The notes under the pieces are model-generated. The model did no database searches. It was not told where the DNA came from and was given only the letters and a program-made list of their open reading frames with translations. A stretch of DNA of 64,000 nt from Polynucleobacter alcilacus (GTDB lineage Bacteria; Pseudomonadota; Gammaproteobacteria; Burkholderiales; Burkholderiaceae). Shown here piece by piece: positions 5,750 through 60,530 of this stretch. The DNA is taken from contig NZ_JACVQD010000001.1 of NCBI RefSeq assembly GCF_018881545.1, positions 214,039-278,038 of the forward strand. Reading direction: 5' to 3'. Positions within the stretch are counted from its first letter, which is position 1. The number at the start of each line of letters is the position of its first letter. The position numbers and the translations under genes are program-made.

Positions 5750-6205
5750 ATGAAAGTTCGTGACATATTGCGCGTCAAGGGGAGCACTTTATTTACAGTA
5801 GCTCCTGACACTGCGTTGCAAACTGCCGTGCTGGTCATGAGCGAACATGACATCGGTTCTTTAGTCGTCATGGAGTATGACAAGCTAGTTGGTATTCTCA
5901 CTTTCAGAGAAGTCATTTCTGCTTTGGCAAAACACCATGGCAAATTAGACGGCATTCAGGTAAGTGCAGTGATGAATCAAAAACCCTTGACTTGCAATAT
6001 GGAAACCGAGATCGACGAGGTCCGCCGCATGATGTTGGTTGACCATGCGCGTTATCTACCAGTCGTAGATCAAAAAATGCTCATGGGCGTCATCTCTTTT
6101 TACGACGTTGCTAAATCTGTCGTAGAAGCGCAAGATTTTGAAAACACCATGCTCAAGGCTTATATTCGGGACTGGCCAGAAGATACAGAAAAGGTCACTA
6201 CCTAG
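5750..6205 (+). CDS. CBS-pair domain protein
   Basis: A 151-residue cytoplasmic protein made of two CBS domains (about residues 10-62 and 78-130). Such stand-alone pairs usually sense adenine nucleotides. I chose the ATG at 5750 because GGGAG lies just upstream; a TTG four codons earlier is also open. It is 78 bases after the YihY gene and could share its transcript or have its own. No partner domain shows what it regulates. Confidence 0.85.
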   Translation: MKVRDILRVKGSTLFTVAPDTALQTAVLVMSEHDIGSLVVMEYDKLVGILTFREVISALAKHHGKLDGIQVSAVMNQKPLTCNMETEIDEVRRMMLVDHARYLPVVDQKMLMGVISFYDVAKSVVEAQDFENTMLKAYIRDWPEDTEKVTT

Positions 6206-54821: not shown

Positions 54822-56006
54822 TTACAGGCGCTCAAAAATCGTCGCAATTCCTTGGCCACCACCAATACACATTGTAACTAAGGCATATTTACCTTGAACG
54901 CGATGCAATTCATGGATAGCTTTAGTGGCAATTGCTGCACCGGAACAACCAATTGGATGACCCAAAGCAATTGCACCGCCGTTTACGTTGGTTTTTGCGG
55001 GGTCTAAACCCAAACCTTTCGTCACTGCCAATGCTTGTGCTGCGAATGCTTCATTCGATTCAATCACGTCGATTTGATCCAACTTCAGACCAGCACGCTC
55101 TAAGGCAATCTTGGTTGCCGGAATTGGACCTTCACCCATGATGTGATTCGGCACACCCGCAACCGCGTAAGAAACTAAACGGGCGATTGGCTTATGACCA
55201 GCTTTCTTCGCGGTTTCAGCATCAGCCAACACAAAGAAGGCTGCGCCGTCGTTAATACCAGAAGCATTACCAGCAGTCACTGAGCCACCCTCTTTTTTGA
55301 ACACAGCCTTCATCTTGCCAAGAGTTTCCATAGTGGTCTCTGGCTTGCAATGCTCATCAGTATCAAACACGATATCGCCCTTACGAGTCTTAATCGTGAT
55401 TGGTACGATTTGAGACTTGAAACGACCTTCTTTAATAGCATGAGCGGCACGACGATGAGACTCCACTGCAAGAGCGTCTTGCTCTTCACGCGTGAGCTTC
55501 CATTTTTCCACGAGGTTTTCAGCAGTGACTCCCATATGACCAACACCGAATGGGTCAGTCAATACGGCAACCATTAAATCCAGCATTTTGGTGTCACCCA
55601 TACGGGCACCACTGCGCATCGCTGGTGAACCATACATACCGCGTGACATGACTTCTACACCGCCACCAACACCATAGTCACAATCGCCGAGCATGATTTG
55701 TTGAGCGGTAGTCACAATCGCTTGCAAGCCTGAACTACATAGGCGGTTCAAAGCCATGGCAACGGATTCCATTGGCAATCCAGCCTGAATTGACGCTACA
55801 CGAGCTACATAGGCATAGCGACTATCCGTGGGAATGGTGTTACCCACAGTAACGTAATTTATGAGTGCTGGATCAACACCAGAGCGGGCAACCGCTTCTT
55901 TCATCACGATTCCGCCGAGTTCAGAAGGCTCAAAGCTACTGAGTGCACCATTAAAGGTACCAATTGCGGAACGTACTGCACTTAAGACAACGACATCACG
56001 ACTCAT
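54822..56006 (-). CDS. phaA: Acetyl-CoA acetyltransferase (beta-ketothiolase)
   Basis: A 394-residue thiolase that condenses two acetyl-CoA to acetoacetyl-CoA, the first PHB step. The acyl-enzyme Cys is in NRLCSSGLQA (about 87-96), the His in GHPIGCSGA and the second Cys in CIGGGQG near the C-terminus. I chose ATG 56006 because AAGGGG lies 7 bases upstream. It is the last gene of the PHB cluster, separated from phaR by rimO. A BktB-type substrate range cannot be excluded. Confidence 0.92.
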   Translation of the reverse strand: MSRDVVVLSAVRSAIGTFNGALSSFEPSELGGIVMKEAVARSGVDPALINYVTVGNTIPTDSRYAYVARVASIQAGLPMESVAMALNRLCSSGLQAIVTTAQQIMLGDCDYGVGGGVEVMSRGMYGSPAMRSGARMGDTKMLDLMVAVLTDPFGVGHMGVTAENLVEKWKLTREEQDALAVESHRRAAHAIKEGRFKSQIVPITIKTRKGDIVFDTDEHCKPETTMETLGKMKAVFKKEGGSVTAGNASGINDGAAFFVLADAETAKKAGHKPIARLVSYAVAGVPNHIMGEGPIPATKIALERAGLKLDQIDVIESNEAFAAQALAVTKGLGLDPAKTNVNGGAIALGHPIGCSGAAIATKAIHELHRVQGKYALVTMCIGGGQGIATIFERL

Positions 56007-56075
56007 ATCAATCCCCTTAGCTGAGCCCAAAAATGGGCTTAATTAATAATACAACCTTCGTTTTTATTACATTCG

Positions 56076-57434
56076 TCAAGTTTCGGCTATTAGGTCATGC
56101 CCTTGGGAGCTAATCACCGTTACCCGGATAATCTCACCGACTCGATAGCGTTTTGAAGGCTTATTCGGGGGCATAACCCTTACTAATCCATCAATTTCAG
56201 GGGCATCTCCTATAGTTCGGCCAATGCCGCCGGATTCATCAACGCGATCAATGAGTACTTGAACTCGTTTGCCTACTTTTTTAGCAAGCCGTTTAATCGA
56301 TATGGCTTCTGCTTTCGCCATAAAGCGCGCTCGCCGCTCTTCTCGAGTGGCATCTGGGACAGGATTTTCTAACTGGTTTGCGGTTGCGCCTTCAACAGGT
56401 GAATAAGCAAAGCAACCCGTGCGATCAATCTGAGCCTCATCTAAGAAGTTCAGCAAATATTCGAACTCTTCTTCAGTCTCCCCCGGAAATCCCGCAATAA
56501 AAGTACTGCGGATTACCAAGTCAGGACAGGCAGCTCGCCAAGCCAAAATACGCTCGACATTTTTCTCACCACTCGCCGGACGCTTCATTCTTTTAAGAAC
56601 ATCCGGATGTGCATGCTGCAATGGAATATCTAAATACGGCAAAACGCCATAGCCATGTTCCGAAAATTCAGCCATCAAAGGCAAGACATCATCTACATGC
56701 GGATAAGGATAGACATAATGCAATCTCACCCATGCTTGATGCTCGCGTGCTATTTGATTCAAGGCATTGACTAAATCAAACATACGCGTTTTAACTGGCT
56801 TGCCATCCCAAAAACCGGTGCGGTATTGGATGTCTACCCCGTAAGCACTCGTATCCTGAGAAACAACTAGCAATTCTTTAACGCCAGATTCAAATAATCT
56901 TGTTGCCTCTGAAAGCACCTCTCCAATGGGTCTAGAAACAAGATCGCCTCGCATGCTTGGAATAATGCAAAATGTACAGCGATGGTTGCAGCCTTCTGAG
57001 ATTTTTAAGTAAGCGTAATGCTTTGGAGTCAGCTTGACCCCAATTGGAGGGACTAAATCTGTAAACGGGTCATGCGGTTTAGGAAGATGCAGATGAATCG
57101 CCTGCATGACTTCATCAGTCGCATGGGGGCCAGTAACGGCAAGGACCTTCGGGTGAATGCTTTGAATGAGATCGGTACCATCCGCATTTTTTCTGGCGCC
57201 TAAGCAACCAGTAACGATGACCTTGCCATTTTCTGCAAGTGCCTCACCGATTGCAGCAAGACTTTCTTCCACAGCAGAATCAATAAAACCACAAGTATTG
57301 ACAACCACGAGATCTGCGCCTGAATAATCTTTAGCAGTCTCATACCCTTCAGCACTTAACTGCGTCAGAATAAGTTCAGAGTCTACTAATGCCTTAGGAC
57401 AACCTAAGGAAACAAAACCAATTTTCCCCGCCAC
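56076..57434 (-). CDS. rimO: Ribosomal protein uS12 methylthiotransferase
   Basis: A 452-residue radical SAM enzyme that methylthiolates Asp89 of ribosomal protein S12. It has the N-terminal UPF0004 domain ([14 protein letters not shown] with Cys ligands), the radical SAM triad in [13 protein letters not shown] (CxxxCxxC), and a C-terminal TRAM domain. It lies 2 bases after the phaR stop, an unusual place for a ribosome-modifying gene within a PHB cluster. Confidence 0.96.
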
Positions 57435-57436
57435 AA

Positions 57437-57997
57437 CTATTCTTTTTCGGTTTTATTTGGCTGTGGAGTAAATGGAAAGCTGCCAAACAAACTTTGTGAG
57501 CCTTGCATTTGCTCTTGCATTTTTACAAACAGATCTTTGCTTTGCTCCATGTAGTTTCCCATCAGGCCCTGCATGAGCGGATTTTGAAGGTTGAGCATTT
57601 GTGACCAAGCCTCAGGTGTACTACCAGCTCCAAGGCCTTTTGATTGATCGCCTAATTTATTGTGAATATCAACAAACGACTGCATGGTTTTTTCGAGATA
57701 ATTTCCCATCAAGCCTTGCATGGAGTTGCCATAGAAGCGAATGATTTGAGAAAGCATTTGGGAAGAAAATACTGGTGCGCCCCCAGCTTCTTCTTCGAGA
57801 ATAATTTGCAGCAAAATATTGCGTGTGAGATCTTCATCGGTCTTGGCGTCGACCACTCTGAAAATCTCATTTGCCATTACTAATCCCTTGATATCATATA
57901 AAGTGACATAGGTGCTAGTTTGGGTATCGTAAAGACGACGATTTGGGTATTTCTTAATGAGTCGATCTTCACCAACTCTTTTTGTACGGGTAGCCAT
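57437..57997 (-). CDS. phaR: PHB synthesis repressor PhaR
   Basis: A 186-residue regulator. The N-terminal DNA-binding domain contains [19 protein letters not shown] (about 12-30), followed by the PHB_acc domain and a Gln/Met-rich tail with two GLMGNYxE repeats. PhaR binds PHB granules and DNA, releasing phasin and its own gene when polymer is present. I chose ATG 57997 since AAGGA lies 7 bases upstream. Three CTGC-N3-GCA sites lie in the leader and intergenic region. Confidence 0.95.
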
Positions 57998-58015
57998 TTT
58001 TTTCCTTACTGAATA

Positions 58016-58113
58016 CTGCAACGCAACATCATTCTAGTTTATCTCTAGTTTGAATAAAGCTTAAATAAGCTGCGTTGCACTATCCTTACCATTCTATAAA
58101 TGCTGCACTGCAG
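58016..58113. promoter_or_regulatory. Putative PhaR operator array before phaR
   Basis: Three sites of the type CTGC-N3-GCA lie between phaB and phaR: CTGCACTGCAG (58103-58113, perfect), CTGCGTTGCAC (58070-58080) and CTGCAACGCAA (58016-58026). The PhaR box known from Paracoccus denitrificans is, from memory, CTGC-N3/4-GCAG. Centres are 33 and 54 bases apart. Confidence 0.6.
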
Positions 58114-58115
58114 TA

Positions 58116-58856
58116 TTAACCAGTGTGAATACCACCATTTAGTGAGAAGTCGGCACCAGTGGCGTAGCCGCCATCATCAGAGGCAATCCAACAACAAATT
58201 GATGCGATCTCATCCGGAGTTCCTAAACGCTTTACCGGAATACCAGAAACGATCTTTTCTAGAACATCCTCCCGAATCGCTTTCACCATGTCAGTACCAA
58301 TATAGCCAGGTGAAACGGTATTTACTGTGATGCCCTTTGTGGCTACTTCCTGTGCCAAAGCCATCGTAAAGCCATGTAGACCTGCTTTAGCTGTTGAGTA
58401 GTTGGATTGGCCAAACTGCCCTTTTTGGCCATTAACAGAGGAAATATTGATAATGCGACCCCAATTGTTTTCGACCATGCCCTCAATCACTTGTTTAGTC
58501 ACGTTAAACAAAGAATTTAGATTGGTGTCGATAACAGCCTTCCAGGCATCGGGAGTCATTTTGCGGAATACGCTGTCACGGGTAATTCCAGCATTATTTA
58601 CTAGCACGTCTACACGACCCACATCAGCCCTCACCTTTTCAAAGGCGGCAACAGTGCTATCCCAGTCGGAAACATTGCCCTCAGAGGCGATGAAGTCATA
58701 GCCAAGCGCCTTTTGCTCTCCAATCCAGCGATCTTTACGCGGTGAATTAGGGCCACAACCCGCGATGACTTTAAAACCATCCTTCGCCAAGCGTTGGCAA
58801 ATAGCAGTACCAATACCACCCATACCACCAGTTACATATGCGACTTTTTGAGACAT
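58116..58856 (-). CDS. phaB: Acetoacetyl-CoA reductase
   Basis: A 246-residue short-chain dehydrogenase that makes (R)-3-hydroxybutyryl-CoA with NADPH. The cofactor loop TGGMGGIG is at about 9-16, NNAGITRD near 88, catalytic Ser in INISSVNGQ and the YSTAKAG motif (Tyr, Lys) near 154. AAGGGGA precedes the ATG. It follows phaC by 42 bases. Confidence 0.96.
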   Translation of the reverse strand: MSQKVAYVTGGMGGIGTAICQRLAKDGFKVIAGCGPNSPRKDRWIGEQKALGYDFIASEGNVSDWDSTVAAFEKVRADVGRVDVLVNNAGITRDSVFRKMTPDAWKAVIDTNLNSLFNVTKQVIEGMVENNWGRIINISSVNGQKGQFGQSNYSTAKAGLHGFTMALAQEVATKGITVNTVSPGYIGTDMVKAIREDVLEKIVSGIPVKRLGTPDEIASICCWIASDDGGYATGADFSLNGGIHTG

Positions 58857-58898: not shown

Positions 58899-60530
58899 TT
58901 ATTTCGCTGGTGCCGATTTTTCTTTTACGTAAACGCCAGGTGCTGCTTCCATTTTTTTGTACTTCGCATTACCAAACGTAGTGCTAGCAGGTTTCTGTTC
59001 GCCCCCAAATTGCTCTAACCATTTCGTATAGTTAGGCCACCAACTGCCCGGAATTTGTTTTGCTCCTTCAAGCCATTGATTTGCGCTCGCAGCAATCTTG
59101 TTATTTTCAAAGTGATAACGTTTGTTCTTCGCTGGTGGATTGATCACACCAGCAATATGGCCAGATGCACCCAGAACGAAACGATTTTTACCCTTCAGAA
59201 TATGGGTAGATTCATATGCGGATTGCCAAGGAACAATATGGTCTTCCTGAGACGCATAAATATAGGCTGGACACTTGATCTTGCCCAAATCAATTTTCTC
59301 TCCACAGATTTTGACCTTGCCAGGCTTCACTAAATCATTTTGCAAATAAGTATGTCGCAGATACCAGCAATACATCGAGCCTGGAAGATTGGTAGAGTCG
59401 CCGTTCCAATACAGCAGATCAAACGGTGGCGGTGAATTTCCTTTGAGATAGTTTTCAACTACATAGTTCCAGACCAAATCATTTGGTCGCAAGAATGAGA
59501 AAGTATTCCCCAGGTCTAAGCCCGACATCATGCCGTACTTACCGCCTTTACCGCCAATCGAGTTCTCGCGCATCTCCACCATGCCTTCATCAATAAAGAC
59601 ATCTAATATTCCGCTGTTCTTGAAATCTAATAAGGTGGTGAATAAGGTCAAGCTTGCTGCCGGGTGCTCATTGCGTGCTGCCAATACTGCAAGAGCTGAA
59701 GCAGTCAGCGTACCGCCAACGCAAAAACCCAAGACGTTTATTTGCTTGGAATTACTAATTTCTTTAACGACATCGATCGCTTTAATCACACCTTTGCCGA
59801 CATAGTCATCCCAACTCACTTCCGCCATAGATTCGTCAGGGTTCTTCCAAGAAACTAAAAATACGGTGTAGCCTTGCGCAACCATGTGACGCACAACGGA
59901 ATTATCTGGTTGTAAATCTAATATGTAATATTTATTAATACAGGGCGGCACCATTAAATAAGGGCGCTCGAATACAGTCTCTGTTAGCGGGGTGTATTGA
60001 ATCAACTCAAATAATGCATTACGAAATACAACATGCCCTGCGGTAGTCGCTATATTTTTACCAACTTCGAAAGCGCTCTCATCGGTTTGGGAAACTTTGC
60101 CCTTCTTCATATCCCCAAGTAAATTCGCAATACCATTTTGAATCGATTGGCCTTGGGTGCTAATAATGTTTTCGAGAACCTCAGGATTGGTCGCAATAAA
60201 ATTAGATGGTGACAGTGCATCAATCATCTGCTCAGTTGTAAACAGAATCTTCTGTTTCATTTTGTCATCTGTATCGACAGCTTTAGCCAAAGAGATTAAG
60301 TGCTTGGAGTTCAGCAAATAGGTTGCTGCAATGACCTTACTCCATGAGGAGTGCCAGGCTTTATCAGCAAAACGACGATCTTTAAGTTCGATTGCCTCAG
60401 GATTGGTAGAAATATGCGCTAGTTCAGCAAAATATTCTTTCTGAATTTCTGCCAAACGCTCTTGTGGAATCAGTGCCATATGGTGGGGCGCCAAGGATGG
60501 CGTAGCACCAGTATTCATGCCTGCAAACAT
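58899..60530 (-). CDS. phaC: Class I polyhydroxyalkanoate synthase
   Basis: A 543-residue enzyme that polymerises 3-hydroxybutyryl-CoA. The lipase-like box GFCVGG with the catalytic Cys is in the middle (about 280-285); Asp in the DHIVPW block and His in SGHIAGVINPP complete the triad. It is shorter than the 589 residues of Cupriavidus, mainly at the N-terminus. AAAGAGA precedes the ATG. It is first in the phaC-phaB-phaR-rimO-phaA run. Confidence 0.96.
   Translation of the reverse strand: MFAGMNTGATPSLAPHHMALIPQERLAEIQKEYFAELAHISTNPEAIELKDRRFADKAWHSSWSKVIAATYLLNSKHLISLAKAVDTDDKMKQKILFTTEQMIDALSPSNFIATNPEVLENIISTQGQSIQNGIANLLGDMKKGKVSQTDESAFEVGKNIATTAGHVVFRNALFELIQYTPLTETVFERPYLMVPPCINKYYILDLQPDNSVVRHMVAQGYTVFLVSWKNPDESMAEVSWDDYVGKGVIKAIDVVKEISNSKQINVLGFCVGGTLTASALAVLAARNEHPAASLTLFTTLLDFKNSGILDVFIDEGMVEMRENSIGGKGGKYGMMSGLDLGNTFSFLRPNDLVWNYVVENYLKGNSPPPFDLLYWNGDSTNLPGSMYCWYLRHTYLQNDLVKPGKVKICGEKIDLGKIKCPAYIYASQEDHIVPWQSAYESTHILKGKNRFVLGASGHIAGVINPPAKNKRYHFENNKIAASANQWLEGAKQIPGSWWPNYTKWLEQFGGEQKPASTTFGNAKYKKMEAAPGVYVKEKSAPAK

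Follow-up and report, generated by a model that had tools for sequence, protein, structure and literature searches.

Does PhaR, the PHB/PHA synthesis repressor, control its own gene in Polynucleobacter alcilacus? The question is raised by three similar short sequences ahead of phaR in the window, that is, the whole 64-kb stretch of DNA analysed here (64,000 nucleotides of contig NZ_JACVQD010000001.1). Polynucleobacter is a freshwater genus that can be very abundant, and its phasin and PHA synthase were reported to be up in the cold, in a study whose available excerpt does not mention PhaR (PMC7522526). Among the literature matches listed, as far as their excerpts go, no description of a PhaR feedback promoter or of PhaR binding in Polynucleobacter was found.

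Three boxes between phaB and phaR

The genes of the locus run on the minus strand in the order phaC, phaB, phaR, rimO and thiolase. The phaR product (57437..57997, minus strand; 186 aa) contains both the DNA-binding and the accumulation domain (PF07879, PF05233) and scores 159.2 bits against the NCBIfam equivalog TIGR01848, whose cut-off is 109.45. Upstream of it are phaB (58116..58856, minus strand), an acetoacetyl-CoA reductase gene by TIGR01829 (above cut-off; 183.6 bits against the PhaB model NF042966, under its cut-off of 436), and phaC (58899..60530, minus strand), a class I PHA synthase gene by TIGR01838 (above cut-off). Control of phaC by PhaR through a TGCRNYGCA box was rejected, as no such site is found upstream of phaC in the window.

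On the plus strand, CTGCACTGCAG at 58103-58113 forms a perfect 5-bp inverted repeat about one base, and it is followed towards phaR by CTGCGTTGCAC at 58070-58080 and CTGCAACGCAA at 58016-58026. These distal, middle and proximal boxes are the three CTGC-N3-GCA sites, the first a perfect inverted repeat, that the initial annotation had placed upstream of phaR, and they are present as described; only the size of the gap had to be corrected, from 119 to 118 bases between the phaB stop and the phaR ATG (57998-58115). Over 9 bases, the proximal box is the exact reverse complement of the middle one. All three fit the tighter form TGCRNYGCA, which matches the published PhaR site. In the excerpts available of the cited studies, the motif is given as TG[N]TGC[N]3GCAA for PhaR (PhbF) of Herbaspirillum seropedicae, whose own promoter was footprinted (PMC3206438), as CTGC[N]3GCAG for R. 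sphaeroides FJ1 (as cited in PMC3206438), as the core YGCRNYGCR for Sinorhizobium meliloti (PMC12542648) and as NGCN(3)GC[GA]N(3) for Bradyrhizobium diazoefficiens (PMC10888616).

Could the boxes have arisen by chance? CTGCN3GCA does occur in the window at the expected frequency, CTGCNNNGCA alone having 14 matches against 12.95 expected and thus not being rare. What argues against chance is the clustering: three sites within 118 bp were found in only 4 of 2000 simulated 64-kb sequences (CTGCN3GCA, either strand), and likewise in 4 of 2000 for TGCRNYGCA. The tight form itself occurs 5 times in the window, below the 7.63 expected from shuffles, and its remaining two sites, at 5812 and 35701, lie inside reading frames. 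Together with the conservation across loci and the high matrix ranks described below, this makes a chance origin extremely improbable.

Conservation and ranking of the boxes

Among 61 genus genomes searched, PhaR was found in 58; with one partial match (G028) left out, 57 loci were available, namely 56 phaB-phaR gaps and one last-200-base stretch (L024) upstream of which phaB was not found. TGCRNYGCA stands ahead of phaR in 38 of the 57, a count in which related rows are not independent. When all 64 arm triplets were compared with the same spacer across these loci, TGC came first and ATA second, with 23. The 19 loci without the box are chiefly distant species or have gaps of 44-54 bp; among them are L042-L044, whose PhaR is at 82% although the genes are separated by 54 bp only, and 13 of 17 loci whose PhaR is at 77% or less. 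A phaB-phaR gap of only 53-55 bp, with TAMACT kept and without TGCRNYGCA, was observed in the Polynucleobacter-like loci L042-L047, L177 and L181, where autoregulation may have been lost.

The best-conserved predicted operator is the proximal box, TGCGTTGCA (TGTTGCGTTGCA including its flank; 58017..58025, minus strand), located 20-28 bases before the start codon and at about +4 to +12 of the predicted transcript. The promoter itself is predicted from the alignments of relatives: a −10 element TAAACT (58036..58041, minus strand), from the TAMACT-box arrangement, and a −35 element TTTAAG (58060..58065, minus strand; TTTACC in most relatives), separated by an 18-bp spacer. TAAACTA is invariant in 55 aligned rows, from which L031 (TACACTA) is excluded. 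A consensus promoter scan did not have the TTTAAG/TAAACT pair among its listed promoters. A weaker alternative is TTAATA-17-TAGAAT (58119-58091), whose spacer would contain the distal box; its TAGAAT is not conserved in the alignment of relatives. Within the spacer (58035-58053), which is unusually conserved, a direct repeat AAACTA recurs at 11-base distance (CAAACTAGGGATAAACTA in many relatives).

In 34 of 37 related promoters (genus loci with PhaR at 80% or more and a gap of at least 90 bp), TAMACT is followed by the box, at a spacing of 10 nt in 33 and 11 nt in 1, while the distance from the box to the ATG varies from 28 to 38 bases. The box is therefore tied to the −10 element and not to the start codon, as predicted for an operator over the transcription start. 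In its core, TGC and GCA are constant and the middle bases vary (GTT, GAT, ATT).

A second set, of 80 named loci, overlaps in part with the genus genomes and is not independent of them. Where PhaR reaches 70% identity, 25 of 29 of these loci carry a box between −45 and −15; under 70% the figure is 21 of 51, and 18 of these 21 have a second box further upstream. Box-bearing loci beyond the genus, in the Burkholderiales, include Duganella, Janthinobacterium, Herminiimonas and Massilia, many loci of which have phaC upstream, with phaB not found there. The other two positions are less common: a distal-type box at −113 to −125 occurs in 14 of the 57 genus loci, and a box at −82, corresponding to the middle one, in the window's own locus only; among the 80 named loci, L156 alone has it. 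The initial annotation had staked its claim on conservation in sister species, and that conservation holds for the proximal box, a conserved PhaR box in phaR's own promoter.

The same box precedes phasin genes, where the initial annotation had proposed to look for it. The window's genome has four phasin matches, and boxes lie ahead of three of them, at −102, −83 and −47. Across the genus, 96 phasin places in 22 genomes were collected, of which 6 were left out; the remaining 90 and the 4 from the window's genome make 94, in 23 genomes. In groups assigned by hand from the first residues, a box lies within 200 bp of the gene in 17 of 22, 15 of 15 and 20 of 20 members of three groups, and in 3 of 23 and 0 of 14 members of two others (D and E), which serve as internal controls. 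At 45% identity the sequences fell into only three clusters (57, 23 and 14), one of which took in groups B, C and most of D. The box-poor groups, which include, e.g., L004 and L137, may answer to another regulator.

A 21-base matrix was built from 59 sites (43 distinct) ahead of phasin genes in other Polynucleobacter genomes, taken from the three box-bearing groups and excluding phaR sequences and the window's own genome. When the window was scanned on both strands (127,960 positions), ranks 1 and 2 went to the distal box (its two strands), ranks 3 and 4 to the proximal box, the second-best site, and ranks 11 and 12, well below the outer boxes, to the middle box; the core sites at 5812 and 35701 stayed outside the top twelve. 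As the matrix sites were chosen by their TGCRNYGCA core, a high rank for sites with that core is to some degree expected from the outset, and it is the flanks that discriminate. The distal box, TGCACTGCA (58104..58112, plus strand), comes directly after the phaB stop and sits within the perfect palindrome 58103-58113. The middle box (58071..58079, plus strand) reads TGCGTTGCA, or TGCAACGCA on the minus strand, and is a weak match.

Conservation and matrix score rule out all three boxes as equal operators: no three-operator arrangement with every box conserved was found, the middle box lacking conservation and scoring poorly. The three PhaR boxes of the initial annotation are thus reduced to two, distal and proximal, whereas the middle one (rank 11, and rare) is better explained as the arm of a hairpin. 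Its central proposal, PhaR autoregulation, is upheld at the level of sequence by the conserved proximal box and by the same box before phasin genes, with the weak middle box taken away from it.

In H. seropedicae, PhbF/PhaR belongs to the same family and binds its own promoter as well as a phasin promoter, and a putative sigma-70 promoter lies just upstream of the PhaR site, as predicted here (PMC3206438). There, however, protection was seen 181-204 bases ahead of the start codon, compared with 20-28 for the proximal box, and the motif continues with GCAA, while the phaR boxes here mostly continue with GCAG (PMC3206438). The Polynucleobacter locus further differs from it in having phaB upstream and a probable hairpin overlapping the promoter. 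PhaR of Cupriavidus necator (R. eutropha) is described as an autoregulated repressor (PMC9049629) that is taken off DNA by PHB (PMC4873508); a phaP1 oligonucleotide from this species contains TGCGCCGCAACA, and for its phaR promoter only an 8-bp site is reported (PMC3570403).

Two published observations argue against autoregulation. In one assay, a phaR-promoter fragment of R. eutropha and control DNA were bound with an equal Kd of 18e-7 M (PMC3570403), and PhaR of B. diazoefficiens is listed as not autoregulated (PMC9049629). A PhaR box of B. diazoefficiens phaP1, TGCGTTGCACTA, is letter for letter identical to 58071-58082 of the window (PMC10888616), i.e., to the weakest of the three boxes. 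In S. meliloti, PhaR/AniA has two boxes around the −35 of phasin promoters, and the sites upstream of phaR were below threshold and bound only at the highest protein concentration tested (PMC12542648). Considering all of this, the sequence very probably represents a PhaR-autoregulated promoter in Polynucleobacter, with two good predicted operators; PhaR binding to it, repression and release by PHB are carried over by analogy with relatives.

A predicted RNA hairpin across the promoter

An inverted repeat at 58011..58085 (minus strand) spans the phaR promoter, and its arms contain the middle and proximal boxes. In the alignments, the left arm lies 5′ of the −35 element and the right arm after the −10 element, running into the proximal box. 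On balance, we slightly favor reading this repeat as a sense-strand stem-loop of the RNA formed by read-through from phaCB into phaR, with the middle box as the complement of the right arm. The reading is based on fold, covariation and strand bias. The alignment behind it drew on loci with PhaR at 70% or more; after merging 7 duplicate segments and leaving out 10 short-gap loci and L031, 55 rows remained.

RNAalifold predicted 16 pairs, of which 12 form the promoter stem and 4 a small stem in the box. In the ten outer pairs, 78.9% of 549 cells are paired (shuffled mean 74.1), 38 cells show two-sided changes (shuffled mean 11.6) and the covariation score is 0.223 (shuffled 0.123), none of these values being reached in 500 shuffles, a comparison in which related rows can exceed the shuffles without any structure. 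Sliding the partners lowers pairing to 23-47%. On the other side, the number of pairs with two-sided changes, 3, was reached by 88 of the 500 shuffles, and in 28 to 33 of the 55 rows the three outermost pairs do not form.

Individual pairs were also followed on the phaR gene tree. Pair 33/75 is GC in 29 rows, AU in 18 and GU in 8, and is broken in none, with 6 changes on the left and 7 on the right. Simulated independent two-state evolution fitted this pair as well in 3, 0 and 0 of 400 runs (three assumed rates) and pair 36/72 in 2, 0 and 0 of 400, whereas for pair 34/74 it did so in 270, 179 and 121 of 400, which makes this pair uninformative. Tree-independent pairs are few, and went the same way on average in 1.8 of 4 (33/75) and 0.3 of 2 (36/72). 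Mismatches in the seven inner pairs comprise 20 G-U, 3 A-C and 20 others, and this excess of G-U over A-C is as expected of sense RNA.

The window RNA folds with −35.6 kcal/mol (z −4.48; z −6.1 for a shorter stretch with 100 shuffles). In this fold the two boxes of the arms, middle and proximal, pair with each other in a shifted register (58085-58011), and the bases of the ribosome-binding region stay unpaired; the usual arm register is mostly broken there, which counts against the hairpin reading. Median fold z values are −3.56 in 37 genus loci and −3.77 in 26 named loci, compared with −0.70 for 94 phasin upstream regions and −0.15 for 54 distant named loci. Folding is better on the sense strand in 29 of the 37 genus and 23 of the 26 named loci, yet also in 39 of the 54 distant loci, which have no notable hairpin, and the strand bias of folding is therefore not specific. 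Strong hits of a model of the hairpin (R1) were obtained in 8 of 11 genomes, always at phaR; hits at other places have E of 0.07 or more. With 150 of 570-853 first-look candidates scored per genome, the confinement of strong hits to phaR speaks against a repeated or mobile element. One weak hit of the model (E 0.124) lies directly upstream of a phasin gene (G008:C2:459928-459991).

At the phaB-phaR gaps of four loci searched with E up to 1, no Rfam family was matched; the sole Rfam match, DUF805b in L005, has 25 bits, under the gathering score of 35.6, and lies inside rimO. An intrinsic terminator between phaB and phaR was likewise rejected, since the scan lists none there and no T-run follows the stem. 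Among the literature matches listed, none was relevant by title to a stem-loop or terminator between phaB and phaR.

The inverted repeat could instead be a DNA operator on which another dimeric regulator grips both sides of the promoter. Its close flanking of the −35 and −10 elements and the unusually conserved spacer would suit such a site, but the arms co-vary without a fixed recognition sequence and their mismatches are strand-biased as in RNA, so that we consider this improbable. If the repeat acts as RNA, the stem, which spans the predicted start, can form only in RNA entering from phaCB, and it is for this reason taken as a processing or stabilizing element of the read-through RNA. This role, compatible with PhaR on the outer boxes, appears marginally better than even; it presupposes read-through from phaCB, which is an assumption, and the hairpin accounts for neither the distal box nor the boxes before phasin genes.

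The symmetry of the motif links the hairpin to the middle box: a left arm complementary to TGCGTTGCA takes the form TGCAACGCA, again similar to a PhaR box. Origin as an arm would account for the presence, the rarity and the poor flanks of the middle box, from which we infer that it serves chiefly as the left arm of an RNA hairpin rather than as an operator in its own right; PhaR may still contact it. Tentatively, and with somewhat less than even confidence, a promoter, a PhaR operator and a covarying read-through RNA element, which gives the phaCB and phaR-rimO messages different fates, would share one stretch of DNA. In the window, the opposite arm would have drifted until it resembled a second PhaR box, so that an operator arose out of base pairing. 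In the P. cosmopolitanus branch (L049-L052, L054, L055, L201, L202), the same gap contains a hairpin of unrelated sequence around TACAAT, which hints at selection for the arrangement itself. The z values of these loci run from −2.78 to −7.66, and several of them have an additional hairpin just after the phaB stop.

Reach and meaning of the probable PhaR loop

Judged by its sequence, the locus looks like an ordinary PhaR feedback promoter, new only in its genus, and the one unusual part is the predicted hairpin that overlaps it. In the proposed model, free PhaR would bind the proximal box, overlapping the predicted transcription start, as well as the distal box, some 80 bases further upstream, and would thereby block phaR transcription. 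As PHB granules form, they would take up PhaR, releasing phaR, rimO and the phasin genes that have boxes.

Which genes follow phaR into this control? The initial annotation had included the downstream rimO and a phaA. The gene rimO (56076..57434, minus strand; ribosomal protein S12 methylthiotransferase, TIGR01125 above cut-off) starts 2 nt past the phaR stop in the window. In 22 of 26 named loci (L152-L177), the distance from the phaR start to the beginning of the rimO match is 564 bases, and in the other four it is 543-567; given this tight spacing, shared control is likely, and rimO is plausibly under the same control as phaR. Nothing related to rimO together with phaR was found in the literature, judged from the listing of matches.

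The second gene fared differently. The supposed phaA (54822..56006, minus strand) encodes a BktB-type beta-ketothiolase, with 662.1 bits against the BktB subfamily model NF006552 (cut-off 565), 582.8 against the BktB equivalog NF042999 (under 725) and 296.8 against the PhaA model NF042967 (under 740). It starts 69 bases after rimO, and TGCRNYGCA occurs in 0 of 29 aligned sequences of this leader (56007-56075, minus strand), most of which contain an AT-rich ATAAAA element. Co-control remains plausible for rimO with its 2-nt gap, while the thiolase, behind a 69-base leader without a PhaR box, may be controlled separately from phaR. A small hairpin (AGCCCATTTTTGGGCT type) was seen in the leader by eye, with changes on both sides of its stem across Polynucleobacter, also by eye.

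Beyond the phasin genes, a wider PhaR regulon was not drawn. Of the 14 places where the strict pattern TGNTGCRNYGCAA occurs in the window's own genome, 2 are phasin promoters, 6 fall within reading frames of at least 120 aa and the remaining 6 gave no usable pattern. Strict PhaR-type motifs were also observed at L241 and L242, near position 1501. Divergent reading frames begin 93 and 41 bases away from them and encode 292 and 328 aa, respectively; the first looks permease-like.

The predicted promoter would extend the PhaR feedback loop to Polynucleobacter and provide a motif that can be used for reading its PHB regulon. Furthermore, it leads to the prediction that RimO, an enzyme that modifies the ribosome, is linked to carbon storage. 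If the overlapping hairpin is real, it would illustrate how RNA base pairing can seed a DNA operator.
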